Shown here piece after piece: positions 12,911 through 54,271 of a DNA stretch of 57,027 nucleotides. A program made the translations under genes and the position numbers. Source of the DNA: Candidatus Methanomethylophilaceae archaeon (GTDB lineage: Archaea > Thermoplasmatota > Thermoplasmata > Methanomassiliicoccales > Methanomethylophilaceae); assembly GCA_017461225.1 (NCBI GenBank), contig JAFTYV010000053.1, forward strand, positions 1-57,027, given 5' to 3'. A model generated the notes under the pieces. The model was not told the origin of the DNA, did no database searches, and saw only the letters and a program-made list of their open reading frames with translations. Numbering within the stretch: the stretch's first letter is position 1; every line of letters begins with the position of its first letter.

Positions 12911-13873
12911 TCAGTTCCTGCTGTGGCGGGTGAGTCCGGAGCAGGGGATCACATCTATCCCCTCCCTCTCCCAGACGTCGCATATCAGGTTGATGCCCAG
13001 GGAGTCCGAGGACATGTGGCCGGAGATGACGATGTTGACGTTGTGCTTCCTGGCCTCCTCGATGTGGCTCTCGGGGAAGTGCATGCCGACGACGGTGCCC
13101 ACACCGGCCTGTGCGAACTTCTCGTAGATCTCCTTGGGTCCGGAGGTGCCGCCGGTCATCTTGCACACGATCCTCCCGCAGCGGGAGGTCTTGGAGCCCA
13201 CCATGATCTTGGGCGGGCTGTTGAACCTGGCGGCGTCCCTGAACTCGGGCTCGGTGTAGAGCGTGTCGATGATGTCCCCCAGTGTCCTGGGCTGTGCGGT
13301 CTCGAACATGCGGGTCATGTAGTCCTGGACCATGTTGTCGGCGGGGGAGTGGATGTTGAACAGCGGGATGCCCAGCAGCCTGGCTGCATCCACGGCCTGG
13401 TTGTAGTTGGACCCCATGACGCCCCTGAGGACGTCGTCCATGCGGCCCTTCATCAGACCCTCGGCGACGTTGATGGGGACGCCCGCGTCGTGGTACATGT
13501 CTGTCTGCATCCACATGACCTCGGGGAAGCAGGTCCTGGCGGTACCTATGGGGTGGTGTGCGACCACCGCGGATATGTTCCTGCCCCTCTCCCTGAGTCT
13601 GTCGGCGAGGAGCACCTCGCCGGTGCCGATGTCCACGCCCCACATGAAGCACTCCGCCTCGGCCTCGAGGTCCTCCTCGGGGCAGAACGAGAAACGGGAG
13701 TCGGCGTAGGGGTTCCAGAGGCGCTCCGGGTCGAACAGGTCCCTCCTGTCCTCGGGGAGCTTGTCGTATGCCTCCCGGGCATCCGAGAGCACACGGTCCA
13801 CCTCGTCCCTGGGACGGGGGTCCTTCGACATACCGGCCTCTATCGCGAGCCTGTAGGCATCCTTGATCTTCAT
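12911..13873 (-). CDS. NIF3-like dinuclear metal-centre protein
   Basis: 320 residues. AVVAHHPIG places the conserved paired histidines at 106-107, and VNIVISGHMSSDSLG near 293 matches the second metal-site region of the NIF3 (GTP cyclohydrolase I type 2-like) family. These proteins hold two divalent metals and their physiological substrate is generally unknown. A leaderless promoter is visible (TTAATAAA on the minus strand at 13897-13904). First gene of the operon with cdc6 and ncsA. Assignment rests on motifs, so moderately sure. Confidence 0.75.
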   Translation of the reverse strand: MKIKDAYRLAIEAGMSKDPRPRDEVDRVLSDAREAYDKLPEDRRDLFDPERLWNPYADSRFSFCPEEDLEAEAECFMWGVDIGTGEVLLADRLRERGRNISAVVAHHPIGTARTCFPEVMWMQTDMYHDAGVPINVAEGLMKGRMDDVLRGVMGSNYNQAVDAARLLGIPLFNIHSPADNMVQDYMTRMFETAQPRTLGDIIDTLYTEPEFRDAARFNSPPKIMVGSKTSRCGRIVCKMTGGTSGPKEIYEKFAQAGVGTVVGMHFPESHIEEARKHNVNIVISGHMSSDSLGINLICDVWEREGIDVIPCSGLTRHSRN

Positions 13874-14397: not shown

Positions 14398-14472
14398 CTT
14401 CTCATCTCCTACGGATTGATGGGAGACATGTGTCCGCGATGATTTAAAGATTGTCCGAACCACCCAATGTGA

Positions 14473-14480
14473 ATTATAAT
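14473..14480 (+). promoter_or_regulatory. TATA box of the nitrogenase-like operon
   Basis: ATTATAAT 23-30 nt before ATG 14503; transcript expected to be leaderless. The promoter sits in a markedly AT-rich pocket next to GC-rich genes. Confidence 0.6.
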
Positions 14481-14482
14481 TG

Positions 14483-14499
14483 TTGGATGATACATCCAA
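14483..14499. promoter_or_regulatory. perfect palindromic operator between TATA and start of the nitrogenase-like gene
   Basis: TTGGATGATACATCCAA: 7-bp arms around a 3-nt spacer. It occupies the space between the TATA box and the start codon, a position that would block polymerase, so a repressor site is likely. Half-sites of the same sequence recur around the methanol methyltransferase operons. Confidence 0.6.
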
Positions 14500-14502
14500 C
14501 TA

Positions 14503-16599
14503 ATGTTGCAGATAGCGGTCTACGGAAAGGGCGGGATCGGGAAATCCACGATATCGGCGAACATATCCCACTCACTGTCGAACAGGGGCCTGAAGGTCCT
14601 GCAGATCGGATGCGATCCGAAACACGACTCCACGCGCCTCCTCCTGGGGGGCAGGGTCCAGAACACCGTCCTGAGGTACCTCAGGGAGGTCCCCAAGGAG
14701 GACAGGAAACTGGACGACGTGCTGTCCGTCGGATCCGGTGGTGTACACTGCATAGAGGCGGGCGGACCGGAACCGGGCGTCGGATGCGCCGGGAGGGGCA
14801 TCCTCACGATGTTCGACTTCCTGGACTCCAACGGTATCTCGGACATGGAGCACGACGTGAGGGTCTACGACGTCCTCGGGGACGTGGTGTGCGGCGGGTT
14901 CGCCGTTCCGCTGAGACACGACTACGCCGACGTCGTGTTCATCGTGACGTCCGGGGAGTTCATGTCGCTCTACGCGGCGAACAACATCCTCAAGGGACTC
15001 CAGAACTACGACAACGGGAGCCCCCGCGTGGGCGGGATAATCCTGAACCGCAGGGGCATGGAGGGGGAGGAGGAGTACGTCCGCAACTTCGCGGACGGCG
15101 TGGGACTCCCCATCGTCACCGTGGTCGAGAGGGACCCCCTTTTCATGCAGGCGGAGTCCATGGGGAGGACCGTTTCCGAGGCGTTCCCCGGTTCCGGACC
15201 CGCCATGTCCATCGAGCGCGTAGTGGACCTCGTCGAGGGCATCCGCAACGGCACGGTGGAGCTACACCACCCGCACCCGCTGGACGACGACTCGATGGAC
15301 AGGGTCGCCAAGGGCGTGCCCCTGGACAGGGGATGCGACTGCGGGTACACCAGGGTCCGAAACCCGGTGGAGGACCGCAGGTCCCTGAAGTCCTGCGCCG
15401 GTGCCGGTGCGGTCTCCTACACCGCACGCATCCGCGACGCGCACACCATAGTCCACGGCCCCTCGAGCTGCGCCTACATGATGTGCTGCAACTCGGACAT
15501 CGTCACCGTCCACAGGGACCTCCACGGTGACGGGGACTCAATCTGGGACCACGTCACCTGCACCGACCTCGACGACTCCGCCTCCGTGTTCGGCGGCATC
15601 CCCGCACTGGAGGATGCCATCCGCCACAGGGCGGAGATGGGTGACGGGGTCGTGTTCGTCGTGTCCATGTGCGTCCCGGGGATCATAGGGGACGACATAG
15701 AGGACTGCTGCTCCAGGATGTCCGCCGAGACCGGGATGAGGGTCATCCCCGTCCCTGTCGACGGCATAGCCGCCGGGGGCGTGGTCCACGGCAGGGAGAT
15801 GGCGATTGGGAAGGTCATGGAGCTGGTCGAACCCTGTGACGAGAAGGACATGGGTCTGGTCAACATACTCGGGGACTACCGCGTGGGCAGGGAGTTCCAC
15901 GCCCACATGGACGCCTCCGTCGAGGAGCTGCTGTCCATGGCCGGGTTCGAGATCAACACCGTCTACCCCGGCAAATGCCGTCTCGAGGACGTGCGCAGGA
16001 TGGGTCGCGCCGGCGTCTCGGTCCGTTCCATGGACAACATGGTCTTCAACAGGAACTGCGACCTCATCTGCGAGAGGACGGGGTCCGTCCACATGAGGGA
16101 GGCGCTCCCCCGCGGGATGGGTGCGATGGACCGCTGGTTCGACGAGGTCTCGGAGATAACCGGTCGTGACACCTCCGCCGCCAAGGCCGAGGTGCGCTCC
16201 CGCTACGAGGCGGGGATATCCCGTCTGACACCGCACACGAGGGGCAGGAGGGTGGTGGTCGTCACCAGGCCCTCGGGGAGGTACAGGTGGCTGTTCGAGC
16301 TTCTCGACGACCTCGGTGTCGAGGTCGTCAGGACCAGGGAGACCACGTACAACAGATGGATAATGGGGACCGAGCTGAGCATGTCGAAGGAGGAGTACAT
16401 CTCCGGGATGGTGGAGTCCGACTGCAGGGAGCTCCAACCGGACCTCGTCCTATCCGACAGCCAGTCGGACCTGCACATCGGGTACAGGTGCAGCGCGATA
16501 GGCGAACCGCATCCCGGGCTGGCCGGCATAATGGACTACGCGGAGAGGCTGAGCAGGATGTTCAGGGCGCCCGTCGCCGAGGGATGGAGGTGCGCCTGA
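14503..16599 (+). CDS. NifH-NifD fusion protein of the nitrogenase-like superfamily
   Basis: 698 residues combining two normally separate subunits. Residues 1 to about 265 are a NifH-type ATPase: P-loop GKGGIGKST at 8-16, CDPKHDST at 37-44, and both [4Fe-4S] cysteines, C95 in GCAGRG and C130 in VVCGGF. Residues about 290-698 are NifD-like, with cysteines at the P-cluster positions: C298 (SCAGAGA), C323 (HGPSSCAY) and C390 (MCVPGIIGDD). It overlaps the NifK-like gene by one base, so the products are coupled. No nifE, N, B, K or molybdate genes are nearby, so this is not a diazotrophic system; F430-type (CfbC/D), chlorophyllide-type or methylthio-alkane reductase-type reductases are the relevant comparisons. 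Substrate unknown. Confidence 0.88.
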   Translation: MLQIAVYGKGGIGKSTISANISHSLSNRGLKVLQIGCDPKHDSTRLLLGGRVQNTVLRYLREVPKEDRKLDDVLSVGSGGVHCIEAGGPEPGVGCAGRGILTMFDFLDSNGISDMEHDVRVYDVLGDVVCGGFAVPLRHDYADVVFIVTSGEFMSLYAANNILKGLQNYDNGSPRVGGIILNRRGMEGEEEYVRNFADGVGLPIVTVVERDPLFMQAESMGRTVSEAFPGSGPAMSIERVVDLVEGIRNGTVELHHPHPLDDDSMDRVAKGVPLDRGCDCGYTRVRNPVEDRRSLKSCAGAGAVSYTARIRDAHTIVHGPSSCAYMMCCNSDIVTVHRDLHGDGDSIWDHVTCTDLDDSASVFGGIPALEDAIRHRAEMGDGVVFVVSMCVPGIIGDDIEDCCSRMSAETGMRVIPVPVDGIAAGGVVHGREMAIGKVMELVEPCDEKDMGLVNILGDYRVGREFHAHMDASVEELLSMAGFEINTVYPGKCRLEDVRRMGRAGVSVRSMDNMVFNRNCDLICERTGSVHMREALPRGMGAMDRWFDEVSEITGRDTSAAKAEVRSRYEAGISRLTPHTRGRRVVVVTRPSGRYRWLFELLDDLGVEVVRTRETTYNRWIMGTELSMSKEEYISGMVESDCRELQPDLVLSDSQSDLHIGYRCSAIGEPHPGLAGIMDYAERLSRMFRAPVAEGWRCA

Positions 16600-17843
16600 T
16601 GCACAAGGAGACCATGGACGGTTTCCTGGCCTCCGTCATCGCGGCGGAGAGCGTCCTGGGCTGCAGGGCGGTGATCCACGGACCGGGCGGCTGCAGGACG
16701 CACTCGTCCCGCCTGTCCGCGAGGACGGTCCTCCGCGACTACTCGATACGCGAGGGACCCTTCTACTTCGACCATCCCAGGGTCCCGTGCACGTACATCG
16801 ACGAGGAGGACTACGTGAACGGTGCGGACTACAAGGTCCAGGACCTGGTGTCCGAGATCGATGCGGAGCTCGTGGTGGTCATCCAATCCCCGGGGACGTC
16901 ATTGATCGGCGACGACCTCAACGGTGCGGTCTACAGGTCGGGTTACGGCGGTGCCTTCGTCGTCGCCGAGAACAACCTCATGTCCGAGAGGCCCCACGTG
17001 GGTTACGACTCCACCATCGCGTCGATGGTGGGCGCTGTGTGCGCCCGCACCGGGACTGACCCGGGGGTCGTGAACGTCGTCGGACTGCCCGTGACGCTGG
17101 AGGGCTGGGAGAGCACCGTGGGGGAGCTGCGTTCCTACGTGGAGGCCATGGGTCTGACCGTCGGGGCGTTCGTCGGTGCCGGATGCACCGTGGGGGAGCT
17201 GCGCGGATCGTCCCGCGCCGGGATCACCGTGTCGGTGCTCCCCGAGTACTGCGGCGCCACCATGGAGGTCTACAGGCGCCTCGGGTCCCACTGCGTGGTC
17301 CCGGAGGTCCCGATCGGGTTCCAATCCACGGGCTCGTGGATCCGCACCGTGGCCGATGCGGCGGGTGTGGACCCCGCGCCCGCCCTGGAGGTGCTCTCGG
17401 GTATGGAGCGCCGCAGCTCCCGTGTGCTCCTGAGCGGGATGCACGAGGGCATGAAGGCGCGCTGCTCCACGTACTCCGTGGACCTCGACACCACGGCGGT
17501 CGCACCGCTGGTCGAGTGGCTGCACTCCTACCTCGGGATGTTCCCGGAGGCCGTCGACGTCAAACCGTGGTGGGACGATGCCACCAGGGGGAGGCTGACC
17601 TCCTTCCTCGACTCCGTCGGCTGCCCGGAGGCCGTGGACCGCGACGCGTCCCGCACCCGCGTGGACGCCGCGTTCACCGACGGGTACTCCGCGATGCTCC
17701 TGGAGAAGCGCGGCACCTGCTCCGTCGGACTAGACCTGTGGATACCCACGGAGCACAGGATGGTGTTCGTGGACAGGCCCGTGCTCGGCGGCAGGGGGGC
17801 ACTGAGGATCCTGGACGAGCTGTTCCAGGGGATACAGAGGTGA
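16599..17843 (+). CDS. NifK/NifN-like subunit of a nitrogenase-like reductase
   Basis: 414 residues, starting very close to the cofactor-binding core. GCRAVIHGPGGC gives C22 and C32, matching the first two P-cluster ligands of NifK. SPGTSLIGDDL at 97-107 aligns with the usual CMAEVIGDDL, but the cysteine is absent. So the bridging cluster, if present, is held asymmetrically, or C64 (RVPCTYID) substitutes. The start ATG overlaps the upstream TGA (TGATG) behind GGAGGTG. The length is short for NifK (about 520), lacking its N-terminal extension. It would pair with the NifD half of the upstream fusion (inference). Confidence 0.85.
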   Translation: MHKETMDGFLASVIAAESVLGCRAVIHGPGGCRTHSSRLSARTVLRDYSIREGPFYFDHPRVPCTYIDEEDYVNGADYKVQDLVSEIDAELVVVIQSPGTSLIGDDLNGAVYRSGYGGAFVVAENNLMSERPHVGYDSTIASMVGAVCARTGTDPGVVNVVGLPVTLEGWESTVGELRSYVEAMGLTVGAFVGAGCTVGELRGSSRAGITVSVLPEYCGATMEVYRRLGSHCVVPEVPIGFQSTGSWIRTVADAAGVDPAPALEVLSGMERRSSRVLLSGMHEGMKARCSTYSVDLDTTAVAPLVEWLHSYLGMFPEAVDVKPWWDDATRGRLTSFLDSVGCPEAVDRDASRTRVDAAFTDGYSAMLLEKRGTCSVGLDLWIPTEHRMVFVDRPVLGGRGALRILDELFQGIQR

Positions 17844-41545: not shown

Positions 41546-42943
41546 TCAGAGGTCGTAGTTCTTGGGGTTGTAGTTGGGGACAGAGTCCTTGTACTCCTTG
41601 GTGCAGTACTCGGTGATCTTGTCGGTGTCGTCGGGGAGCTCCTCGAGGGTCTTGATGATGGACTTGAGGGTGTCGAGCTGCTTGTTGGTCAGTCCGAGCT
41701 CCTTGGTCTCGTATCCGTTGAGGATGATCTTGGCACCGGTGAGTCCGGCTGCCTTTGCCCTGAGGTAGAGGTCGTTTCCGTTCTCTGCGATTGCCTGTCC
41801 GACCTTGTATGCGTTGTCGTAGGCGAGGACGTATGCCTCGGGTCCCCTGGTCCTGTCTGCGTACATGTACAGGTCCCTGAGGGTCTTCTCCTGTCCGAGC
41901 TGGGTCGCGGTGTTCATGAGTGCGGCCTCGTATGCGATGGATCCGAACCAGCACTGGACGGAGGTTCCACCGAACTCGGGGTGGTACTCGACGGACTCGT
42001 TGGACCAGAGGTCGCAGGCCTGTGCGATGAGGTTACCCTGGAGATCGCAGTGTGCGCACTGGCAGTTCTTTCCCTCCTGTGCGGTGGGCTTTCCTGCGAC
42101 GGCCTTACAGATGATTCCCTCGTATCCGCAGTCCTTGTCGGGTCCGACTGCACCGGACTCCCATGCTGCAAGGGTCCTTGCAGCGGAGATGCACCTGGTG
42201 ACTGCGGAGAAGGTCTTCTGGACATCGTTGTCGAGGTATCCGCCGGCCATGAACATGGAGACGTTCGCTCCGGAGCAGTTGGTGTCTCCTCCGGGGATGC
42301 ACTTGTTCTTCTTTGCGATCTCGGAGAACTCGGACCAGACGTAGGTCATGTCGAGGGATCCGAGGTAACCGACTCCGAAGAGGAATGCGGTGATGTCTCC
42401 GTTGGTGACTGCGTAGTCTGCGAACTCTTTTCCACCGACGGTCTCACAGGAGAGGACATCGGTTCCGTTCTCGCATGCGATCTCTGCGCACTCGAAGAGC
42501 TTCTCGGGGTAGCTGCGTCCTCCCATTCCGGGCTTGAGTCCCTCATCGGCCTCACGCTGGTCGGGGATGGTGTGCCTGACTGCACAGTTGACTCCGTACT
42601 CCTCGTGGTACTTCTCGCAGATTGCCTTCTGGCCTGCGACGACGGGACCGGAGAGCTTCTCCTGGTTCATCTGGGAGACCCACTCGGTCTCGAGCTGGAC
42701 GTTGGGGAATCCTGCGGTGACTGCCCTGTTGAGGATGTCCTTGGAGATGTAGTCGACGTACTCCCTCCTGAGCTTCTCTGCATCCTTCTCGGTTCCGGGC
42801 CTGGGTGCGTAGTTGATCTCGGGGATGACGACTCCGGCTCCGACCTGGATTCCGAATCCGTAGGAAACGGGGTGGACTGCCTTTCCGAAGACAAGGTCAT
42901 CTGCGTCTTTGTATGCCATGCTGGTGTATCTTGTAACTGCCAT
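41546..42943 (-). CDS. mtaB: methanol:corrinoid methyltransferase, copy 1
   Basis: 465 residues. MtaB transfers the methyl group of methanol to Co(I) of MtaC. The zinc ligands known from Methanosarcina barkeri MtaB (Glu164, Cys220, Cys269) are matched here by Glu167, Cys223 and Cys272 with identical spacing (56 and 49). ATG 42943 lies 5 bp after the mtaC stop behind GGAGAGTGAT. No in-frame stop; pyrrolysine is not used. A stretch near the C-terminus is identical at nucleotide level, over more than 60 nt, to mtaB copy 2. MtaA, which passes the methyl group to coenzyme M, is not in the window. Confidence 0.97.
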   Translation of the reverse strand: MAVTRYTSMAYKDADDLVFGKAVHPVSYGFGIQVGAGVVIPEINYAPRPGTEKDAEKLRREYVDYISKDILNRAVTAGFPNVQLETEWVSQMNQEKLSGPVVAGQKAICEKYHEEYGVNCAVRHTIPDQREADEGLKPGMGGRSYPEKLFECAEIACENGTDVLSCETVGGKEFADYAVTNGDITAFLFGVGYLGSLDMTYVWSEFSEIAKKNKCIPGGDTNCSGANVSMFMAGGYLDNDVQKTFSAVTRCISAARTLAAWESGAVGPDKDCGYEGIICKAVAGKPTAQEGKNCQCAHCDLQGNLIAQACDLWSNESVEYHPEFGGTSVQCWFGSIAYEAALMNTATQLGQEKTLRDLYMYADRTRGPEAYVLAYDNAYKVGQAIAENGNDLYLRAKAAGLTGAKIILNGYETKELGLTNKQLDTLKSIIKTLEELPDDTDKITEYCTKEYKDSVPNYNPKNYDL

Positions 42944-42948
42944 TCGAA

Positions 42949-43728
42949 TCACTCTCCAATGATGTTGTCCCACTCATCCCTAATCTGCTTCCAGGTGTAT
43001 CCGTCAAGGATCTTCTGTGCGAGGATAGGGGTCTGGGGTGCCTTCTCAGAGTAGATTCCGAGGTCGTAGGAGTTGGCGAAGTCCCTGTTGACTGCTCCTC
43101 CGCATCCCATCATGGGGATCTCGAGGCCTGCGTCCTGGAGTCCTTTCGCGACTGCGGGGAACGCGGTCATGGTGGTGGTCATGAGTGCTGTTCCGGAAAT
43201 GAACAGGGGTTTGACCTCGACACACTTTGCGATGGCGTCGACGACAGGAACATCCCTTCCCATGTCGATGACGTCGTATCCGGAGGACCTCATCATGACA
43301 GCGGCGATGTTCTTTCCGATGTCGTGGGGGTCTCCCTCTGCTGCGTGCATGACGACGGTGGCCTTTGCCTCCCTTCCGCCGGGAACCTGCTTCTCGGCGA
43401 GTGCGATTCCAATCTCCATGGTCTTTGCGGCCATCATGATCTCGGGCAGGTAGTACACGTGCTCTGCGTAGAGCTTTGCAACGACTTCCATTCCTGCAAC
43501 AAGTCCCTTGTTGATGACGTCGAGGGGGTCCCTCTCCTTGAGTGCCTCCATGACGACGGGTCCAACGGTCTTGAACCTCATGTACATGACCTCCTCAGCG
43601 ACCTTGTTGAAAACGGGGTCGGTGGGAAGGAGCTTCTTTGCCATCTCTTCGGGGGTTGCCTCGACCTGGAGGTCGATGTCGTAACGCTTCAGAACTTTGC
43701 TGAAGTCTGCGCCTTTGCTGCTAAGCAT
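42949..43728 (-). CDS. mtaC: methanol corrinoid protein, copy 1
   Basis: 259 residues. An N-terminal four-helix methyltransferase cap is followed by a B12-binding Rossmann domain with EGDPHDIGKN (axial His135), SGTALM and GCGGAVN motifs. It carries the methyl group from MtaB to MtaA and must be reactivated by RamA when cobalt oxidises. GAGGAGATAAAC precedes ATG 43728. Cotranscribed with mtaB. Confidence 0.97.
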   Translation of the reverse strand: MLSSKGADFSKVLKRYDIDLQVEATPEEMAKKLLPTDPVFNKVAEEVMYMRFKTVGPVVMEALKERDPLDVINKGLVAGMEVVAKLYAEHVYYLPEIMMAAKTMEIGIALAEKQVPGGREAKATVVMHAAEGDPHDIGKNIAAVMMRSSGYDVIDMGRDVPVVDAIAKCVEVKPLFISGTALMTTTMTAFPAVAKGLQDAGLEIPMMGCGGAVNRDFANSYDLGIYSEKAPQTPILAQKILDGYTWKQIRDEWDNIIGE

Positions 43729-43742
43729 GTTTATCTCCTCTA

Positions 43743-43759
43743 CAAGTGCGGTGCACTTG
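43743..43759 (-). promoter_or_regulatory. hairpin in the mtaC copy 1 leader
   Basis: CAAGTGC and GCACTTG separated by three bases, a perfect inverted repeat ending about 14 nt before the mtaC start and just upstream of its ribosome site. It lies in the untranslated leader between the TATA box (43783-43792) and the start, so it may act at RNA level or as an operator. Confidence 0.5.
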
Positions 43760-43782
43760 CAACAGTGAAATTCAAGAAGTTG

Positions 43783-43818
43783 TATTTATAATGCTCTATG
43801 GATGGAGATATATCCATA
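43783..43818 (-). promoter_or_regulatory. mtaCB operon 1 promoter with palindromic upstream element
   Basis: ATTATAAATA at 43783-43792 (minus strand) is the TATA box. Just upstream, at 43797-43818, is an inverted repeat with TATGGAT/ATCCATA arms whose core reads GGATGGAGATATATCC on the plus strand. A very similar element sits at the same place before mtaC copy 2, suggesting a shared activator. Confidence 0.6.
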
Positions 43819-44152
43819 CATTTAATTGCATTCATATATAAAGAAAATTGATTATTCTTTAACCAACATTCAACCGTATATATACTTTAGTTAATATTGT
43901 TAATGTTACATCCAACATCATCCAATGAACATCGAACATCATGAATGATAAATTTTATAAATGGTATAATGGGCTCCGACGATCGTCGTTTTTCAGGTTG
44001 GATGTGATGGATGAATCCCGATCCATGCATCCACCCAGAGACAGAACGGGCGATGGACCGGGGACCGTGGGCGCTGTAACCAAACGGACACGGAATCTGA
44101 AAAAGGTAAGAGGTTTGGGTAAGGGGTTTGTTGAACATCAAGTTGTACGACT
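43819..44152. other. intergenic region between the mtaCB operons
   Basis: 334 bp without a gene I can support. The first half is AT-rich and the second is GC-richer. It holds two CATCCAA copies (43909-43915 and 43919-43925), a plus-strand TATA-like ATTTTATAA (about 43951-43959), the palindrome at 43977, TTGGATG at 43998-44004 and TGGATG at 44008-44013. Short open frames exist on both strands but have no ribosome site or recognisable product. A small RNA driven by the plus-strand TATA box is possible. Confidence 0.5.
43977..43993 (+). other. CGACGATCGTCG palindrome followed by a T tract
   Basis: A perfect 12-bp palindrome (43977-43988) followed by TTTTT. Reads as a small terminator on the plus strand, or as an operator; it lies about 20 nt downstream of a plus-strand TATA-like element. 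Confidence 0.4.
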
Positions 44153-45553
44153 TCAGAGGCCGTAGTTCTTCATGTTGAAGTTGGGGACGAGGTCCGCGTA
44201 CTTCTTTGCGCAGTACTCGGTGAACTTGTCGGTCTCCTCGGGGAGAGCCTCGAGCTCCTTGATGACTGCGTTGAGGACGTCCAGCTGCTTGTTGGTGAGC
44301 TGGATCTCCTTGCCCTCGTAACCGCCCTTGATGATCTTGGCTGCGGTGAGTCCGGCTGCCTTTGCCCTGAGGTAGAGGTCGTTTCCGTTCTCTGCGATTG
44401 CCTGTCCGATCTTGTAGGCGTTGTCGTAGGCGAGGACGTATCCCTCGGGTCCACGTGCCCTGTCAGAGATCATGTACAGGTCCCTGAGGGTCTTGTCCTG
44501 ACCGGTTGCGATTGCGGTGTTCATGAGGGAGACCTCGTATCCGAGGGATCCGAGCCAGCACTGGACGGAGGATCCACCGAACTCGGGGTGGTACTCGACG
44601 GACTCGTTGGACCAGAGGTCGCAGACCTGAGCCATCAGGTTACCCTGGAGGTCAGCGTGTGCGCACTGGCAGTTCTTACCCTCCTGAGCGCAGGGCTTTC
44701 CGGCGATTGCCTTTGCGATGGGTCCCTCGTATCCACAGTCCTTGTCGGGTCCGGCTGCGCCGCACTCCCATGCAACAAGGGTCCTTGCTGCGGAGATGGC
44801 CCTGGTGACTGCAGAGAAGGTCCTCTGAACATCGTTGTCGAGGTATCCGCCTGCCATGAACATGGAAACGTTTGCTCCGGAACAGTTGGTGTCTCCACCA
44901 GCGACTGCCTTGTTCTTCTTGGCGATGTCGACGAACTCAGACCAGACGTACTCCATATCGATGGAACCGAGGTATCCGACTCCGAAGAGGAATGCGGTGA
45001 TATCTCCGTTGGTGACTGCGTAGTCTGCGAGCTCCTTTCCTCCCATGGTCTCACAGGAGAGGACATCTGCACCAGACTCACATGCGACCTCTGCTGCCCT
45101 GAAGAGTGCCTCGGGGTATGCGTGGGATCCACCCATGCCGGTCCTCAGACCCTCCTCTGCCTCACGCTGGTCGGGGATGGTGTGCCTGACTGCACAGTTG
45201 ATTCCGTACTCCTCGTGGAACTTCTCACAGATCTCCTTCTGTCCCTCGACGACGGGGGTGGACATCTTGGGGTTACCCATCTGGGAAACCCACTCGGTCT
45301 CGAGCTGGACATCGGGGAATCCGAGGGTGACTGCCCTGTTGAGGACATCCTTGGAGATGTAGTCGACGTACTCCTTCCTGAGTTTTGCGGGGTCCTTCTC
45401 GGATCCGGGCCTGGGAGCGTAGTTCAGCTCAGGGATGACCCTTCCGGCTCCGACCTTGATTCCGAATCCGTAGGAAACGGGCTGTTTTGCGGTTCCGAAA
45501 ACCATCTCATCTGCGCTGCCGTATGCCATTTTTGTGTATCTAGTAACTGCCAT
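44153..45553 (-). CDS. mtaB: methanol:corrinoid methyltransferase, copy 2
   Basis: 466 residues, collinear with copy 1 and very similar. Zinc ligands Glu168, Cys224 and Cys273 are conserved with the same spacing. ATG 45553 is 1 bp from the mtaC stop behind GGAGGTGAG inside the end of mtaC. Differences from copy 1 concentrate in residues 10-25, 90-110 and 135-160. Two isozyme pairs usually allow expression at different methanol levels or growth stages (known for Methanosarcina, inferred here). Confidence 0.97.
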   Translation of the reverse strand: MAVTRYTKMAYGSADEMVFGTAKQPVSYGFGIKVGAGRVIPELNYAPRPGSEKDPAKLRKEYVDYISKDVLNRAVTLGFPDVQLETEWVSQMGNPKMSTPVVEGQKEICEKFHEEYGINCAVRHTIPDQREAEEGLRTGMGGSHAYPEALFRAAEVACESGADVLSCETMGGKELADYAVTNGDITAFLFGVGYLGSIDMEYVWSEFVDIAKKNKAVAGGDTNCSGANVSMFMAGGYLDNDVQRTFSAVTRAISAARTLVAWECGAAGPDKDCGYEGPIAKAIAGKPCAQEGKNCQCAHADLQGNLMAQVCDLWSNESVEYHPEFGGSSVQCWLGSLGYEVSLMNTAIATGQDKTLRDLYMISDRARGPEGYVLAYDNAYKIGQAIAENGNDLYLRAKAAGLTAAKIIKGGYEGKEIQLTNKQLDVLNAVIKELEALPEETDKFTEYCAKKYADLVPNFNMKNYGL

Positions 45554-45554
45554 T

Positions 45555-46337
45555 TCACTCACCTCCAACGATGGACTCCCACTCGTCCCTTATTCTCTTC
45601 CAGTCATATCCTGCAATGATCTTGTCTGCGATCGGGGGAGTCTGGGGTGCCTTCTCGGAGTAGATTCCGAGGTCGAAGGACTCTGCGAAGTCCCTGTTGA
45701 CTGCTCCACCTGCTGCCATGAAGGGCAGGCTGATACCGTCTTTTACAAGGATCTCTGCTGCACGGGGGAATGCGGTCATGGTGGTGGTCATGAGTGCAGT
45801 ACCGGTAACCATGATGGGCTTGACTTCTTTGACCTTGGCAACAACATCGACGACTGCGACGTCCTTACCCATGTCGATGATCTCGTATCCAGAGGACCTC
45901 ATCATAACAGCGGCGATGTTCTTACCGATGTCGTGGGGGTCTCCCTCTGCTGCGTGCATGACGACAGTTCCCTTTGTCTCTCTTCCACCGGGGATCTGCT
46001 TCTCTGCAAGAGCGATACCGATCTCCATGGTCTTTGCGGCCATCATGATCTCGGGCAGGTAGTAGATGTGCTCGGCATACAGTTTTGCGACACACTCCAT
46101 TCCAACAACGAGTCCGTTGTTGATGATGTCAAGAGCCTTGTGGGTCTTGAGTGCCTCTGCGGTTGCGGGACCGACGTCCTTGAATTTCATGTAGAGAACA
46201 CACTCTGCGACGTTCTTGAGAACGGGGTCAGCAGGGAGCATTTTCTTCGCAACTGCCTCGGGGGTTGTCTCGTTCTGAGCCTCAATGTCGTAGCGCCTGA
46301 GGATCGTGCCGAAATCTACACCTTTGTAGTCAATCAT
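45555..46337 (-). CDS. mtaC: methanol corrinoid protein, copy 2
   Basis: 260 residues with the same plan as copy 1: helical cap, then EGDPHDIGKN with axial His135, GTALMTTTMTAF and AGGAVNRDF. AAGGAGGAAACTAA gives a strong ribosome site before ATG 46337. Together with the adjacent mtaB it forms operon 2; the TATA box is TTATATAG at about 46402-46409. Confidence 0.97.
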   Translation of the reverse strand: MIDYKGVDFGTILRRYDIEAQNETTPEAVAKKMLPADPVLKNVAECVLYMKFKDVGPATAEALKTHKALDIINNGLVVGMECVAKLYAEHIYYLPEIMMAAKTMEIGIALAEKQIPGGRETKGTVVMHAAEGDPHDIGKNIAAVMMRSSGYEIIDMGKDVAVVDVVAKVKEVKPIMVTGTALMTTTMTAFPRAAEILVKDGISLPFMAAGGAVNRDFAESFDLGIYSEKAPQTPPIADKIIAGYDWKRIRDEWESIVGGE

Positions 46338-46401
46338 TTAGTTTCCTCCTTTTTGCGGGCTCCGGTTTCCCATTGCCTGCATGTTGAACACCACAAACAG
46401 G

Positions 46402-46436
46402 CTATATAACTCCATTCGAGGATGGTTATTATATCC
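46402..46436 (-). promoter_or_regulatory. mtaCB operon 2 promoter with upstream element
   Basis: TTATATAG (minus strand, 46402-46409) as TATA box, and GGATGGTTATTATATCC on the plus strand at 46420-46436, which matches the GGATGG...TATATCC core of the element before operon 1. The distance from TATA differs by only about 3 nt between the two operons. Confidence 0.6.
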
Positions 46437-46823
46437 AGAGTTTATATACTCAATAATTAACATTAAATACTGTGTATCTTAAATATTGACATTATCAACA
46501 TTTTCTTAATTTTATTAATATATTATAATATATGATATTTAAACAACAAATTTAATTCCTAAAAAGGAAATAATTTAATTAAATTGTATTTTAAGAAAAT
46601 AGTGTACATTTCATGTGGAATAAAATCAGATGTTGGATGTGGGTCCGGAAATATGGATGGATATGATGCACAATAATCCAACCATCCGGCATAAATGAAG
46701 GATGCTGGCCATGGTGGATCGAATGAGACAACCGTGAATTAATATTAAATAAGAAGAAAGGAAGAAAACACGTAGTCATTCCTAAATTTCCAATATCTTC
46801 CCAATGGCCTTTACACCTAAACT
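46437..46823. other. AT-rich intergenic region between mtaCB operon 2 and the ramA operon
   Basis: 387 bp, strongly AT-rich, especially 46440-46610 with runs such as TTATTAATATATTATAATATATG. TTGGATG at 46633-46639, ATGGATGG at 46654-46661 and AATCCAACCATCC at about 46675-46687 repeat the half-sites seen elsewhere. No gene supported. Probably a regulatory region for two divergent, strongly expressed operons; remnants of a lost gene are not recognisable. Confidence 0.5.
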
Positions 46824-46862
46824 CTTCTTTACTATAGAAGAAGAAAGGATATTGCTTATATC
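46824..46862 (+). promoter_or_regulatory. promoter of the G3E GTPase-ramA operon with inverted repeat
   Basis: CTTCTT (46824-46829) and AAGAAG (46838-46843) flank an 8-nt spacer just upstream of the TATA box GCTTATATC (about 46853-46861). ATG 46886 lies about 29 nt from the TATA centre, so the transcript is leaderless. Confidence 0.55.
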
Positions 46863-46885
46863 TTAGATGATACTATGAATCGAGC

Positions 46886-47473
46886 ATGTACGTATACATT
46901 CTCGGTGGATTCCTAGGAAGTGGGAAAACCACATTGTTGATGAAACTCGCATCCATGTACACCAAACGTGGTCTCAAGACCGCATTGCTTGTCAATGAGT
47001 CCGGGGAGATCGGTGTGGATGGTGCCACATTGAAGGCCGAGGGTTACGATGCCATAGAGCTTCCCGATGGTTGCATCTGCTGCTCCCTCTCCGGAACTCT
47101 CCAGTCCGCCCTCAAGAACATCGCCAGGGACATCGACCCCGACATCATCATCGTCGAACCTACTGGACTCGCCCTCCCCCACAAGGTCAAGGAACTTGTC
47201 CACTACGCCATGATCGATGAGGAGGCAACATACATCATCGGTGTGGCAGATGTGCAGAGGTTCGAGGACCTCATCAAGAAGAAGGAACAGTTCTTCAAGA
47301 TGCAGATGTCCGGTGCCGACTTCGTCCTCATCAACAAATGCGACCTGGCCACACCCGAGAAGATCGAACAGATCAAGGCATGGATCCATGAATCCTTCCC
47401 CGAGAAGCCCATTCAGGAGATCTCCGCCAAGACCGGAGAGAACATGGACAAGCTCTACGAGATGATGAAATGA
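46886..47473 (+). CDS. G3E-family (CobW/HypB-like) metallochaperone GTPase
   Basis: 195 residues. Walker A GGFLGSGKTT at 7-16, NESGEIGVD, the GCICCS metal-binding CxCC motif near 64, Glu-Pro-Thr of the G3E switch (VEPTGL near 92), and NKCD for guanine. It is short because it lacks the CobW C-terminal domain. Such GTPases bind Zn, Co or Ni at CxCC and hand it to a target enzyme. It overlaps the His-rich gene and is in one operon with ramA next to the methanol methyltransferase genes, so zinc for MtaB or cobalt handling for MtaC are the obvious targets (inference). Confidence 0.9.
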   Translation: MYVYILGGFLGSGKTTLLMKLASMYTKRGLKTALLVNESGEIGVDGATLKAEGYDAIELPDGCICCSLSGTLQSALKNIARDIDPDIIIVEPTGLALPHKVKELVHYAMIDEEATYIIGVADVQRFEDLIKKKEQFFKMQMSGADFVLINKCDLATPEKIEQIKAWIHESFPEKPIQEISAKTGENMDKLYEMMK

Positions 47474-48180
47474 GTGAGGAGTACAGTTCCATAACCGAGG
47501 CAGGCGGATGTGCCGTCGGCATGACAGGGAAACTGGAATGCTTCAACGGTTCCACCGAGGATAAGTTCGCCAACGCACTCGTGACTGTCGGAGAGTGGGT
47601 AGCCGAGGAATCCGGTGCCCTCCTCGGTCACATCAAGGCCGCCATCACACTTGATGACGGTTCGGGAATGACTCTCAACCTCACCAGCCTCCAATCCGGC
47701 GTCGAGCGCCACGGCTCACTCAGGTCGGAAGGCAAGGTCAACTTCACCTTCATGTGTGCGGTCCTCGACGTCGACGAGGCCGAGCTGAAACACAGGATGT
47801 TCCACGCTATCGACGATTCCGGCATGAAGTACGAACTCGATGAGCACGTCGAATGCCACTGCCATGAGCACCACCATCACCATGACCACGAGCATGGAGA
47901 GGGTTGCACTTGCGGTTGCCACGATCATGAGCACCACCATCACCATGACCACGAGCATGGAGAGGGTTGCACTTGCGGTTGCCACGATCATGAGCACCAC
48001 CATCACCATGACCGCGAGCATGGTGAATGTCACTGTCACGACCATGATCACAGCCACTGCGACCACGATCATGGACATGGCCACGACCACGAGGAGGGAC
48101 ACTGTCCCGCCTGCGAGGCTAAAAAAGGAACCGGTCAGAAGAAATCCCTTCTTGACCGGCTGAGGAGGAAAAAGGAATGA
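47470..48180 (+). CDS. His-rich metal-binding protein
   Basis: 236 residues. The first 125 form an unrecognised alpha/beta domain (EAGGCAVGMTGKLECF...). From about 128 the chain is extremely His-, Asp-, Glu- and Cys-rich, built from a 21-residue unit HEHHHHHDHEHGEGCTCGCHD repeated, then HDHDHSHCDHDHGHGHDHEEGHCPAC and a basic tail KKGTGQKKSLLDRLRRKKE. Start and stop overlap the neighbouring genes by ATGA. It may act as the missing C-terminal partner of the short G3E GTPase, storing or loading zinc, cobalt or nickel (inference). Confidence 0.8.
   Translation: MSEEYSSITEAGGCAVGMTGKLECFNGSTEDKFANALVTVGEWVAEESGALLGHIKAAITLDDGSGMTLNLTSLQSGVERHGSLRSEGKVNFTFMCAVLDVDEAELKHRMFHAIDDSGMKYELDEHVECHCHEHHHHHDHEHGEGCTCGCHDHEHHHHHDHEHGEGCTCGCHDHEHHHHHDREHGECHCHDHDHSHCDHDHGHGHDHEEGHCPACEAKKGTGQKKSLLDRLRRKKE
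47863..47988 (+). repeat. two identical 63-bp tandem repeats plus a partial third
   Basis: Unit 1 at 47863-47925 and unit 2 at 47926-47988 are identical; a third copy diverges after about 30 nt (CACGAG to CGCGAG near 48010). Each encodes 21 residues of the His-rich tail, keeping frame. Prone to copy-number change. Confidence 0.9.
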
Positions 48181-49793
48181 GTTACGGAATATCACTGGAT
48201 ATTGGAACCAGTGGTACCAGGGGACATGCTGTGGACCTCTCCAACGGGAAGATCCTGTCCACTGCAGTCACTGAGTGCCACCCACTCCCCGGTGCGAACA
48301 TCATGGATCACCTTACATTCTGTATCAACTTCGGTACGGATATCGCTCACAAGATCCTGATGGACACAGTCAACAAATTGATCGCCCAGCTGGGTGTGGA
48401 CCTCAACCAGGTCGAAAAGGTCAGTATCTGCGGTAACCCCATCCAGCTCTCCCTGTTCCAGGGAATCCCCGTCGACGATCTCGCATTCGCTGGCGAGAAC
48501 GCCCACAAGGCCAGGGGAATCCAGGAGCAGAAGAGGGACGCAGGAGTCTTCTCCGCTGTCGATGTGGGACTCAACGTCAAGGATGGATGCGAACTCTACG
48601 TACCCCCATCCATCAGGCATGAGATCGGTGCCGACGCACTGGCGATGATGTACAAGAGCGGTTTCCTTGAGGAGAAGGAGAACTGTATGGTCACCGACTA
48701 CGGAACCAACGCCGAGATGGCGCTGAAGATCGGCGACGACATCTACACCGGATCGGCAGCTGCAGGACCCGCGATGGAGGGACAGTCCATCCAGTGCGGT
48801 ATGCTCGCCGGACCCGGAGCCATATCCGACCTCGAGTACGACTTCAAGTGGATCTGCAAGGTCCTCGACGACGACATCATCCCCCAGGATGGAGACAAGG
48901 TCGACTTCGGACTCGACATCATCGAGGAGTACGGACCCATGCGCGGAAAGGCCAAGGGAATCACCGGAACCGGTGTCATCGCCGCGGTATCCGCTGCGAT
49001 GGACGACCACCTCTGGAGGAAGGGAAAGCTCCAGACATCCGATGGAAAGCTCCACCTCCAGGACGGAGTGTTCATCGACTCCAAGGACATCTCCGAGGCA
49101 CTCAAGGCCATCGGAGCCATGAGGGCCGGTCACTTCACACTTCTGGAGCACGCCGGAATCAAGTTCGAGGAACTGGGAATCATGTACATGGCCGGTGCAT
49201 CCGGAACCTATGTCGATGCAGTCAAGGCAAGGGACGTCGGTCTCCTGCCCCCGTCCTGTCACACCATCTACCAGTACGGTAACACCTCTCTGGCAATGGC
49301 GACAGACATCCTGAAGAACCCCGAACTCCTCGATGAGCTCCAGGGAATCGCCAACGGAATCAGGGCAAACCACATCATGTTCGCCGGAGACAAGATCTTC
49401 GAGCAGATCTACATGCAGGAGCTCGCCGTCTGCGATGAGGGAATGAGCATGGAGATGTACAACAGGAACAACGCCATGGTCGGAATCCAGGAACTCCCCA
49501 AGCCCAGGGGCAGACCCAAGGTCCACCGCATGGTCCAACGTGACATCCCCGACCTCGGAGAGAGGGGACTCACCATCCTCCACGACATCGGAACCGTCCT
49601 CAAGGGAAAGATGGATGGATGTACCGGTTGCGGAAAGTGTCAGAAGGAGTGCCCCGAGCAGGCCCTCACAGTCGGTGCCGACAAGGAGATCTCTGTCCTC
49701 ACCAAGAACTGTCTCGGTACCGCCTGCTTCAGGTGCCAGTTCGTCTGTCCTGAGAAGGTCTACAAGTACGACAACCTCAAGCTGACAATCTGA
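48177..49793 (+). CDS. ramA: RamA-type reductive activase of corrinoid methyltransferase proteins
   Basis: 538 residues. ASKHA-type ATPase core (SLDIGTSGTRGHAVDL at 6-21, VTDYGTNAEMAL near 178, MAGASGTY near 340) and a C-terminal 2[4Fe-4S] region, CTGCGKCQKECPEQAL near 482 and CLGTACFRCQFVCPE near 509. RamA reduces Co(II) of methyltransferase corrinoid proteins to Co(I) using ATP. It resembles the Methanosarcina methylamine activase and the methanol-specific MtaX-like proteins; the mta context favours methanol. The start overlaps the His-rich gene. Terminator follows at 49805. Confidence 0.93.
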   Translation: MSYGISLDIGTSGTRGHAVDLSNGKILSTAVTECHPLPGANIMDHLTFCINFGTDIAHKILMDTVNKLIAQLGVDLNQVEKVSICGNPIQLSLFQGIPVDDLAFAGENAHKARGIQEQKRDAGVFSAVDVGLNVKDGCELYVPPSIRHEIGADALAMMYKSGFLEEKENCMVTDYGTNAEMALKIGDDIYTGSAAAGPAMEGQSIQCGMLAGPGAISDLEYDFKWICKVLDDDIIPQDGDKVDFGLDIIEEYGPMRGKAKGITGTGVIAAVSAAMDDHLWRKGKLQTSDGKLHLQDGVFIDSKDISEALKAIGAMRAGHFTLLEHAGIKFEELGIMYMAGASGTYVDAVKARDVGLLPPSCHTIYQYGNTSLAMATDILKNPELLDELQGIANGIRANHIMFAGDKIFEQIYMQELAVCDEGMSMEMYNRNNAMVGIQELPKPRGRPKVHRMVQRDIPDLGERGLTILHDIGTVLKGKMDGCTGCGKCQKECPEQALTVGADKEISVLTKNCLGTACFRCQFVCPEKVYKYDNLKLTI

Positions 49794-51451: not shown

Positions 51452-52258
51452 TCATTGAAGGACGTTCTCCTTCTCGAGTTCCTCGAGGATCCTCTTCCTC
51501 AGAGCGGTGAACTCGGGTGAAGCACGGTCCCTGGGCCTGGGCCAAGGGATCTCCACGATCTCCTTGATCTTGGCAGGACGTTTGGTCAGGATGACGATCC
51601 TATCGGACAGGAACACGGCTTCATCCACGGAGTGTGTGATGAAGATGATCGTCTGATCGGTCTTCTCGAGGATCCTGACGAGTCCGGCCTGCATGATGTT
51701 CCTCGTCTGAGCATCCAATGCTCCGAAGGGCTCATCCATCAGAATCACATCGGGATTGTTAACCAATGCCCTGGCGATTCCAACACGCTGCTTCATACCA
51801 CCGGATAACTCATTGATACTGGAATCGGCGAAATCCTGAAGACCGACGATCTCGAGGTACTTCTCTGCCCTAGCCTTGCGCTCTTCTTTGGGCATACCGG
51901 CGATCTCGAGTCCGAGTTCGACGTTCCTCCTGACGCTCCTCCATGGAAGGAGTGCGAAATCCTGGAACACCATACCCCTGTCCGGACCTGGACCGGAACA
52001 AGGCCTTCCGGCGATGCTTATGCTACCGGATGTTGGTTCCAGAAGACCGGCGATCATCCTGAGGATCGTGGTCTTACCACAACCAGACGGTCCGACTATC
52101 GAGATCAGCTCACCTTTCTTGATGTCAAGGTCGAAATCCTCGATGGCGACGGTGACCTTCTCATCCTTCTGATACGTCTTGCTGAGGTTGTCGATCCTGA
52201 TGAAGGACTCACCCTCCTGGACGCATTCGTTTCCTGTACATGTGGTGTTCTCGTCCAT
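51452..52258 (-). CDS. ABC transporter ATP-binding protein (SsuB/TauB/NrtD type)
   Basis: 268 residues: Walker A GPSGCGKTT near 62, Q-loop VFQDFALLPWRSV, signature LSGGMKQR near 158, Walker B VILMDEPFGALD, switch His in FITHSVDEAVFL. The sequence FALLPWRSV and the tail RPRDRASPEF are typical of the nitrate/sulfonate/taurine/aromatic importer class. ATG 52258 overlaps the permease stop. The N-terminal extension contains two cysteines (TTCTGNEC) not usual for the family. Confidence 0.93.
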   Translation of the reverse strand: MDENTTCTGNECVQEGESFIRIDNLSKTYQKDEKVTVAIEDFDLDIKKGELISIVGPSGCGKTTILRMIAGLLEPTSGSISIAGRPCSGPGPDRGMVFQDFALLPWRSVRRNVELGLEIAGMPKEERKARAEKYLEIVGLQDFADSSINELSGGMKQRVGIARALVNNPDVILMDEPFGALDAQTRNIMQAGLVRILEKTDQTIIFITHSVDEAVFLSDRIVILTKRPAKIKEIVEIPWPRPRDRASPEFTALRKRILEELEKENVLQ

Positions 52259-53055
52259 CACTCGACCCCCATCCTCTTGGAAATGTACTTCTGAAGGTAC
52301 TCGGAAAGGGATGTGGTGAGTATTCCGAGTATCGCGATTATGATCAGTATTGCGAATGTACTGTCCCACAATCCAGACATACACATGTTGGAGATGCAGT
52401 ATCCCACTCCGATGGCCACAGGCGAGTACATCTCGGCTGCGACGATACACATCCATCCGACTCCCAGACCGACCTTGATACCGTTCATGACATACGGGAT
52501 GGAACTAGGTGCCATGACCTTGGTGAAGACCTGCATCTTGTTTGCCCCCAGTGTCCTGGCCGCATCGACCAGAGTGGGGTCGATCTTCTTGACACCGAAA
52601 ATGATGTTGGTCAGCAACGGGAAGAAGATACCGATGAAGACGACGAGAATCGGACCGGTTCCATAGCTGATTCCGTAGATGAAGATAGGTGCCCATGCCA
52701 TGGGTGCGATGGGCCTAAGGACCTCGACTATGGGTGTGACGAACGTGTTCAGCGTCTTCGAGAAACCGAGGACCAATCCAAGAGGGACGGCCACGACGAA
52801 TGCCAGCAGGAATCCCTTGAGGAAGAGCACAAGGCTCGACGAGATGTAATCCCATGCGGATATGTTGAGGTATCCGTTGGCCAGGAAGTCCTTCAACGCT
52901 GCGAATGTCTCGGGAGGCGTCGGAAGGACCCTGCTGTCTATCAACTCGGCTATGAACCACCACAGCTCGACGAATATTATCAGGGAGGCGAGGACCACCA
53001 GGATGTTCTTCCCGAGCCTGTGGTACTTGTTGTTGTTATCGTACTTGAAATTCAA
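52258..53055 (-). CDS. ABC transporter permease (SsuC/TauC type)
   Basis: 265 residues, six membrane helices, BPD-type EAA loop DAARTLGANKMQVFTKVMAPSSIPYVMNG near 170. Start codon is TTG at 53055 (no ATG nearby), behind GGAAGGTGA, 18 bp after the substrate-binding protein stop. It overlaps the ATPase gene by one base. Forms the membrane channel for the substrate delivered by the permuted binding protein. Confidence 0.92.
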   Translation of the reverse strand: MNFKYDNNNKYHRLGKNILVVLASLIIFVELWWFIAELIDSRVLPTPPETFAALKDFLANGYLNISAWDYISSSLVLFLKGFLLAFVVAVPLGLVLGFSKTLNTFVTPIVEVLRPIAPMAWAPIFIYGISYGTGPILVVFIGIFFPLLTNIIFGVKKIDPTLVDAARTLGANKMQVFTKVMAPSSIPYVMNGIKVGLGVGWMCIVAAEMYSPVAIGVGYCISNMCMSGLWDSTFAILIIIAILGILTTSLSEYLQKYISKRMGVE

Positions 53056-53073
53056 GATTAGTCACCTTCCCAA

Positions 53074-54240
53074 TCAGGCGGTAACCGCCCTGTCATTGAC
53101 TGTGTTGATGGTAAGTGGCGGTGCTCCGAGGAGACCGAAATCAGACTGACCTCCGAGAAGGTCCAATGCAACGGCACCTCCGTTACCAACACCTCTGATG
53201 TTGACGTCGAGGTTGTACTCGTCGAAGTAACCGAGTTCGTCTGCCACGTTGAGCGCGATCTGGTGGATATCACCGGCGATGGCGACCACATCGATGACGG
53301 TCTTGGACTTCAGGGGCCTTATGTTCTCATCCACTGCATCCTTGAGGTAGGAATCGTCGACCAATGCTGTGGCGAACTCTGTGCTGTCCTTGAATCCAAG
53401 TGACTGGATCTCGGTCTTGATGGTTTCGATGTCCTCGAGGTCCTTCTCGAGTGATGCGATATCCTGGATAAGGACGTCGAGGGAACCGGAGACGTTGTCA
53501 TCGGAGTACTTGTAGACGACATTCTCGAGTGCTGCCTCGATGACGGCCCTGTTGAGACCTGTGGTCTTCTCACAGATTGCTATGAACTCCGCATACTTCT
53601 CTGAGCCTTTGTCAGCGAGTGCCTCGTTCACGTACTTTACACCCTTGACATAAGCTGTGAGGAATGCGACGGTGGCATCGCGGTTGGAGTCCATGAACTC
53701 ATCGTAACCTGCAATGACACAACATGCGTGACCGGGGAACAGATCGTTCGTGAGCACCATGGGCTCGTACTGCGAATCACTGATGATCCTGCTGTACTGG
53801 GGCTCCCAGAGGATTCCACCATCGAGGATGTGTGCATTGTTCTCGGTTGCTGCCTCCGCGTTGTTGATTGTATCGGAGAAGTACAGAGTGTCCTTGTTCT
53901 TCGCATCGCCCTCTGTGTACTTCACGAACTTGAGACCCATGGAATCCGCAATCTGCTGCAACTGTACGTGTTGAATCGTAGATGTGCCGGGTGTACCGAA
54001 CACCTTACCGGCCCATCCATCCTTTATGAACGTATATGTTCCATCATCGTTCTCGATCAGAAAATCACTCACTTCATACGACGCTTTCATGTATATGCCA
54101 GAACCATCTGTGTTGACCCTGGCCACAGCCGATATAACGCTACGTGATTCTCCATCCCCGTCATCGGAAACCACGTAGATCCCCACAGCGAGGACCAGCA
54201 TGATGCCCACAACGGCAACTACAGAGACTTTCGTATCCAT
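53074..54240 (-). CDS. substrate-binding protein with circularly permuted NMT1/SsuA domain
   Basis: 388 residues. Residues 5-23 form a signal or anchor helix. The chain then starts in the middle of the usual fold: SVISAVARVNTDGSGIY, the lobe-2 motif GWAGKVFGTPGTSTIQH at 76-91 and ILWEP at 143-147, through YVKGVKYVNEAL and the family C-terminal VDDSYLKDAVDE. After that comes what is normally the N-terminus (KTVIDVVAIAGDIHQIALNVADELGYFDEY) and it ends at GLLGAPPLTINTVNDRAVTA. Joining the end to residue 35 would recreate the standard order. ATG 54240 chosen; GTG 54249 is 23 nt from the TATA box and would be leaderless. Substrate not deducible (taurine, sulfonate, thiamine-precursor or aromatic types). 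Confidence 0.85.
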   Translation of the reverse strand: MDTKVSVVAVVGIMLVLAVGIYVVSDDGDGESRSVISAVARVNTDGSGIYMKASYEVSDFLIENDDGTYTFIKDGWAGKVFGTPGTSTIQHVQLQQIADSMGLKFVKYTEGDAKNKDTLYFSDTINNAEAATENNAHILDGGILWEPQYSRIISDSQYEPMVLTNDLFPGHACCVIAGYDEFMDSNRDATVAFLTAYVKGVKYVNEALADKGSEKYAEFIAICEKTTGLNRAVIEAALENVVYKYSDDNVSGSLDVLIQDIASLEKDLEDIETIKTEIQSLGFKDSTEFATALVDDSYLKDAVDENIRPLKSKTVIDVVAIAGDIHQIALNVADELGYFDEYNLDVNIRGVGNGGAVALDLLGGQSDFGLLGAPPLTINTVNDRAVTA

Positions 54241-54271
54241 GGCTTTCACTATGGTTACATACCGGATGATT

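Follow-up and report, generated by a model that had tools for sequence, protein, structure and literature searches.

Results

Locus and gene layout

The 57,027-nucleotide stretch analysed here (hereafter the window) is contig C24 of a methanogen metagenome-assembled genome (MAG) from the Methanomethylophilaceae (G000; 1.52 Mb, 97% complete), in which mcrA was detected. It carries a gene that fuses a NifH-like and a NifD-like protein into one polypeptide (HD), directly followed by a gene for a NifK-like subunit (K). The features of the locus are as follows.

14472-14481 (+): TATA-box-like element AATTATAATT 5' of HD, read from the sequence; function putative
14483-14499 (no strand): palindromic operator TTGGATGATACATCCAA (TTGGAT-N5-ATCCAA), 3 bp ahead of the HD start codon
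14503-16599 (+): HD, NifH-NifD fusion of 698 amino acids in a single open reading frame (PF00142 and PF00148)
14503-15297 (+): H half of HD, with the P-loop, C95 (14785) and C130 (14890)
15298-15390 (+): H-D linker, roughly residues 266-296 of HD
15391-16596 (+): D half of HD, with C298 (15394), C323 (15469) and C390 (15670); no equivalent of Cys275
16599-17843 (+): K, NifK-like subunit of 414 amino acids, with C32 (16692) and D7 (16617) (PF00148)

The ATG of K at 16599 overlaps the stop codon of HD (TGATG), such that the two genes are translationally coupled. Counted from this ATG, K is of ordinary length for its kind and not short, as the original prediction had it. Pfam assigns residues 3-267 of HD to Fer4_NifH (E 3e-85), residues 298-654 to Oxidored_nitro (E 3e-53), and residues 12-411 of K to Oxidored_nitro (E 2e-29). 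In AlphaFold models the mean pLDDT is 85.6 for HD, falling below 50 at residues 281-293 in the linker, and 91.8 for K. By structure comparison, the H half has the fold of Fe proteins (TMt up to 0.91) and K that of NifK, MarK and BchB. With an Fe-protein ATPase and an Oxidored_nitro D/K pair, recognised by Pfam and fold comparison, the system belongs to the broad nitrogenase superfamily, and the P-loop, both H-cluster cysteines (C95, C130) and the three D cysteines at P-cluster positions (C298, C323, C390) that had been read from the sequence are all confirmed in HD.

Recurrence and conservation of the fusion

The fusion is not an assembly error, a possibility that the original prediction had raised: it recurs across genomes, including 53 aligned full-length fusions from archaea and Clostridia. 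The window's own genome holds four HD+K pairs, and most Methanomethylophilaceae genomes contain the fusion, with a maximum of seven copies. Within the genus, a NifH-domain match occurs in 30 of 31 genomes, the usual set being one free CfbC plus 0 to about 7 fusion-type copies. Across the order, the window HD was matched in 119 of 147 genomes at E <= 1e-40, a threshold that also lets in free CfbC; at E <= 1e-80, 36 of 390 sampled genomes from the phylum were positive, all of them from the order. When the GTDB collection was scanned with 7 query sequences, the fusion also appeared among Lachnospiraceae, Oscillospiraceae, Eggerthellaceae and other Clostridia or Firmicutes of the rumen and gut. 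Compared with a 93% identical copy in another Methanomethylophilaceae MAG (L081), the ratio of non-synonymous to synonymous substitution rates comes to about 0.055 (0.039/0.72) in HD and 0.07 in K; HD-K is thus real, not a product of chance, and under strong purifying selection.

Nine HD genes of the order contain a single in-frame TAG, while TAA was not seen and TGA occurred once, in a truncated match. Four of these TAG codons lie at the H/D junction, all inside a span of about five residues (residues 276-277 in L179/L082, 277 in L173/L136, 273-275 in L174/L112, and 361 in L076/L089, or about 277 after discounting an N-terminal extension), five lie in D (L175, L176, L177, L178, L061) and none in H; the window copy has none. 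Seemingly split orthologues (L082, L076/L089, L112, L136) were considered as an argument against the fusion and rejected, as each is one frame with a single TAG between H and D. The H and D parts of L083 and L097 are frame-shifted. Pyrrolysine is encoded in this order of archaea, and partial read-through of TAG might yield free H as well as HD in the relatives that carry it. A D-K pair without an H domain was observed in L085 (16853-19431, -), on an island that also has a full HD-K, three CbiZ-like and two CobN genes.

Cluster and cofactor ligands

C95 and C130 of H and C298, C323 and C390 of D are invariant across the 53 aligned fusions. In a set of 30, divergent copies included, the first D cysteine is kept in 29 and the other two in all. 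The equivalent of the cofactor ligand Cys275 is missing in 30/30 HD and present in every NifD, NifE, VnfD, VnfE and NflD reference; at the His442 position HD shows a gap in the alignment, and so do the Nfl references. K retains only the Cys95 equivalent of the NifK P-cluster cysteines, with an invariant Asp at the Cys70 column and Pro or Leu at the Cys153 column. D and K together thus offer three and one, respectively, of the six cysteines of a P-cluster. Fewer ligands than a P-cluster and no Cys275 is the pattern of dark-operative protochlorophyllide oxidoreductase (DPOR) and chlorophyllide oxidoreductase (COR), and the full cysteine set is likewise absent from BchNB and CfbD (PMC12552129). 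CfbCD-type enzymes have [Fe4S4] clusters only, and tetrapyrrole sites (PMC12552129). Because the ligand pattern of HD-K resembles that of these enzymes, we infer by analogy that a [4Fe-4S] cluster lies between the subunits and that the acceptor is an organic macrocycle.

Placement among nitrogenase-like families

Trees were built by a quick search with support from the SH-like approximate likelihood ratio test (SH-aLRT) alone; they contain one BchN and one BchB, both on long branches, and Mar (methylthio-alkane reductase) is represented by two Nfl loci only. In the H tree, the H domains of the fusions form a single clade (SH-aLRT 99) that divides into an archaeal half (92) and a bacterial one (99) and is separate from CfbC, NifH, NflH and BchL. 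In a joint D/K tree, the D halves group in a single clade on the D side (support 99), as do the K proteins on the K side (100); both clades divide into archaea and bacteria, and both are separate from CfbD, NifD/E/K/N and NflD/K. This split, common to the H, D and K clades, suggests that H-D-K was inherited as a unit.

HD-K misses every NCBIfam equivalog cut-off. Among these models the H half scores highest to CfbC, at 300 bits under a cut-off of 402, and the CfbD score is 26 bits under a cut-off of 268; the DPOR models give 183 of 345 (BchL), 28 of 420 (BchN) and 50 of 490 bits (BchB). Among solved structures in the PDB, the D profile is nearest to NifE, then NifD, and K is nearest to MarK. 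CfbCD membership was rejected on these scores and on the separate clades: both proteins fall outside the CfbC/CfbD clade in either tree, and the prediction of a fusion within an uncharacterised nitrogenase-like clade is upheld, HD and K each having a clade of their own. By these sequence comparisons HD-K is a new clade, or variant, of nitrogenase-like reductases that belongs to none of CfbCD, DPOR, Nif and Mar.

A shared operator

The palindrome TTGGAT-N5-ATCCAA was seen in the upstream regions of archaeal HD genes. With up to one mismatch allowed, it occurs 86 times across 1.34 Mb of archaeal loci when the half-sites are 5 bp apart, against 0-5 times at each other spacing from 0 to 12; these loci were picked around HD genes and partly overlap, so that not all 86 are independent, and the pattern itself came from the sequences scanned. 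At up to 3 mismatches of 12, it stands upstream of 52/68 distinct archaeal HD genes and in 0/68 in-gene controls. Several HD genes without it sit in operons behind CobN, ChlD or CbiZ (L014, L077, L111, L126, L119). The bacterial loci (328 kb) held one match, and 99 kb of CfbC/CfbD loci none.

The window has one match at up to one mismatch, the perfect one at 14483-14499. Elsewhere in the same genome, the operator lies just 5' of CobN (C39, C55) and ChlI (C5, C55), around CbiK (C48), and ahead of several binding-protein genes. Through this common putative operator, the lone HD copy of the window is tied to tetrapyrrole and corrinoid genes. In two loci, a gene that by eye fuses a methyltransferase to an ArsR-type helix-turn-helix adjoins HD (L067 5637-6767, L073 7994-9052) and is a possible regulator.

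Genomic neighbourhood

Housekeeping genes flank the window copy, with no tetrapyrrole gene adjoining. The earlier statement that no cofactor genes are adjacent therefore stands for this copy, but not for its close orthologues and its paralogues, which sit among CobN, ChlI/ChlD, CbiZ and BtuFCD-type genes. A FecCD, binding-protein, CobN, ChlI/ChlD or CbiZ gene lies within 8 kb in 45 of the 73 archaeal D-containing loci, many of which are on short contigs. Tight same-strand arrangements include CobN-HD-K in the window's own genome (C60, gap of 14 bp) and in L077 (16 bp), ChlI-ChlD-HD-K in L111, BtuC-BtuD-CbiZ-HD-K in L126 (L119 is similar) and HD-K-SBP-FecCD-ATPase, with a substrate-binding protein (SBP) gene, in L087. 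The CobN neighbours (PF02514) score above the CobN (cobaltochelatase) equivalog cut-off; the others are ChlI/ChlD-like AAA proteins, CbiZ (PF01955), CbiK (PF06180) and FecCD permeases (PF01032) whose top score is BtuC, under its cut-off, with an ATPase that scores highest to a corrinoid ATPase. The HD clade of the window copy includes L082, L085 and L087, each sited among tetrapyrrole or importer genes.

Among the matches listed, HD and CobN copy numbers correlate over 45 genomes (rho 0.77, kinship ignored), and both are missing in 6 of the 45. Of 73 HD, 14 lie within 12 kb of a CobN against 4.3 expected, again among the matches listed and with kinship ignored.

Among the Clostridia, L154 is the sole HD-K locus near cbiG and a tetrapyrrole methylase gene, and in L140 HD-K is followed by genes that by eye resemble larB and larC.

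Other genes of the window

Methanol-methyltransferase genes occupy positions 41546-49793, namely two pairs of MtaB and B12-binding protein, a CobW-type GTPase and a RACo-type activase (48177-49793). An NMT1-like binding protein and a BPD-type permease (52258-54249, -) form an ATP-binding cassette importer. A 320-amino-acid gene adjoining an Orc1/Cdc6 gene (12911-13873, -) has no match in Pfam or NCBIfam, and the replication-origin motif of PMC4153887 was sought across the window and not found.

Discussion

With moderate confidence, and on the strength of the comparisons above, we propose that HD-K is an ATP-driven, Fe-S-only tetrapyrrole reductase within a corrinoid or metallo-tetrapyrrole uptake-and-remodelling regulon. 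The proposal starts from what is observed, namely the fusion, the ligand pattern, the separate clades, the common operator and the operons; from these we infer the type of cluster, a tetrapyrrole as substrate and, going further, which tetrapyrrole this might be and whether its ring or its metal is reduced. HD-K would be a two-component reductase working like DPOR, COR or CfbCD: the H halves would dimerise and, upon ATP hydrolysis, send low-potential electrons to a D-K inter-subunit cluster held by three D cysteines, one K cysteine and perhaps the invariant K aspartate, from which they would reach an organic macrocycle lodged between the two subunits. A macrocycle is the proposed acceptor, rather than a metallocofactor, because the ligand of the latter is absent. 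The most likely substrate would be a tetrapyrrole on which the co-regulated proteins act (BtuFCD-type importer, CbiZ-like amidohydrolase, CbiK and CobN-ChlI-ChlD chelatase): a corrinoid that has been imported or remodelled, or else a related metallo-tetrapyrrole, whose ring or metal would be reduced somewhere between import and (de)chelation.

With one H per D, a D2K2 core would carry two H domains, equivalent to one Fe-protein dimer at a time; the flexible linker, H-less D-K pairs or a junction UAG in some relatives might ease this limit. The fixed H:D stoichiometry expected from the fusion may not be strict, given the junction TAG in four relatives and the H-less D-K of L085. A more specific version, which we consider unlikely as a whole, would have HD-K act as a reductive de-metallase or ring-remodelling motor that feeds ATP-driven electrons into an imported corrinoid or metallo-tetrapyrrole, enabling CobN-ChlID to extract the metal (reverse chelation) and supplying gut methanogens with metal or ring skeleton, with the junction UAG setting the ratio of free H to HD by pyrrolysine read-through in some relatives.

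Several observations weigh against a role in tetrapyrrole reduction. The window copy adjoins no tetrapyrrole gene, copies in Clostridia stand alone and bacterial loci share no neighbourhood theme, three high-quality genomes have HD without CobN among the matches listed, and the HD-CobN enrichment tests ignore shared ancestry. Moreover, siderophores and heme are likewise taken up by importers of the FecCD/PF01497 type, and IsdE is the closest match of one binding protein. The regulon could accordingly serve iron, heme or siderophore scavenging, with HD-K reducing a metallophore or heme to release its metal, the more so as the CobN-family protein HmuS releases iron from heme in gut Bacteroidota (PMC12583661). 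We nevertheless regard this alternative as rather unlikely: CbiZ, CbiK and a CobN above the cobaltochelatase cut-off indicate cobalt and corrinoids, as do the best scores of the permease and the ATPase.

It is quite improbable that HD-K leaves free tetrapyrroles unchanged and instead donates electrons, driven by ATP, to activate a corrinoid protein or a nickel protein by forming Co(I) or Ni(I). The organism does depend on corrinoid methyltransferases that need low-potential reduction, as the two MtaB/B12-binding pairs of the window attest. However, a RACo-type activase is already encoded there, HD copy number ranges from 0 to about 7, and the genetic links are with genes for import and chelatase rather than with mtaBC.

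Replacement of CfbCD by HD-K, which would then reduce Ni-sirohydrochlorin a,c-diamide toward coenzyme F430, is very unlikely. It would agree with the presence of mcrA in a genome without a CfbD over the cut-off, with CfbC as the best NCBIfam model of the H half, and with the CbiK adjoining one HD-K pair. Against it stand the missed cut-offs, the position outside the Cfb clades and the coexistence of canonical CfbC and CfbD with HD-K in most members of the genus. In the window's genome, searches for the separate Cfb proteins gave neither CfbD nor CfbE, nor did a free CfbC come to light; CfbD and CfbE also went undetected in the sister genome G094. Since a relative has cfbA-C-E-D-B as one operon and CfbE is missing too, a single-enzyme swap is less likely than a gap in the assembly or loss of the entire pathway; in both genomes there is either an assembly gap, or F430 synthesis has been lost in favour of uptake. 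Least probable of all is that HD-K works with a metallocofactor, as nitrogenase and methylthio-alkane reductase do, and converts N2, C-S or other small substrates: the nearest solved structures (NifE/NifD for D, MarK for K) would fit, but the missing Cys275 equivalent argues against N2-type or methylthio-alkane chemistry, and two of the three NifK P-cluster cysteines are replaced in K, for which reasons Mar and N2 chemistry were both disfavoured.

Returning to the proposed tetrapyrrole reductase, DPOR (BchL-BchN-BchB) offers a parallel, with an Fe protein, a heterodimeric D/K type, a few-ligand inter-subunit cluster and no Cys275; in Roseobacter, bchN-bchB-bchH-bchL are neighbours and BchH is a CobN-family subunit. 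Unlike HD, DPOR has H as a separate protein, BchB has an Asp at, or next to, the position of the K Cys, and DPOR lies apart in trees with one Bch reference. CfbC/CfbD shares the archaeal order and provides the nearest equivalog model for the H half, but consists of separate genes in separate clades, its CfbD lacks a K partner, and it coexists with HD-K in most genomes of the genus. Mar and NflHDK share the H, D and K components, and MarK is the PDB sequence closest to K, whereas Mar has a P-cluster and an Fe8S9C cluster (PMC12552129) for which HD-K lacks the ligands. NifHDK and NifEN share the fold, and the D profile fits NifE best, yet HD has no cofactor ligand and HD-K scores far under the family cut-offs.

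The fusion itself is already listed in the literature. A 'fused nifH/nifE' was recorded in Ca. M. intestinalis in 2014 (PMC4153887), and a NifH-NifD/E fusion in Methanomassiliicoccales in 2024, with Methanosarcinales and Methanomicrobiales showing composite and split forms (PMC11237513); these are very probably the same proteins as HD. The relevant passages of both papers name the fusion in passing and do not treat its partner, ligands, regulon or function. In the open-access literature, with most subscription journals outside its scope, we found no account of the partner, ligands, regulon, function or chemistry of HD, and no link between nitrogenase-like proteins and CobN.

The use of archaeal CobN homologues was called unclear in 2025 (PMC12583661), and they now gain a co-regulated reductase partner, with the operator as a direct handle for tracing the regulator and its signal. 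The nitrogenase superfamily, in turn, gains a coherent clade with a built-in reductase, spread in gut methanogens and Clostridia. If our reading is true, it would open the question of whether ATP-driven reduction can power tetrapyrrole remodelling or metal removal, and would offer a route to how gut methanogens obtain corrinoids or metals, with a bearing on ruminant methane.

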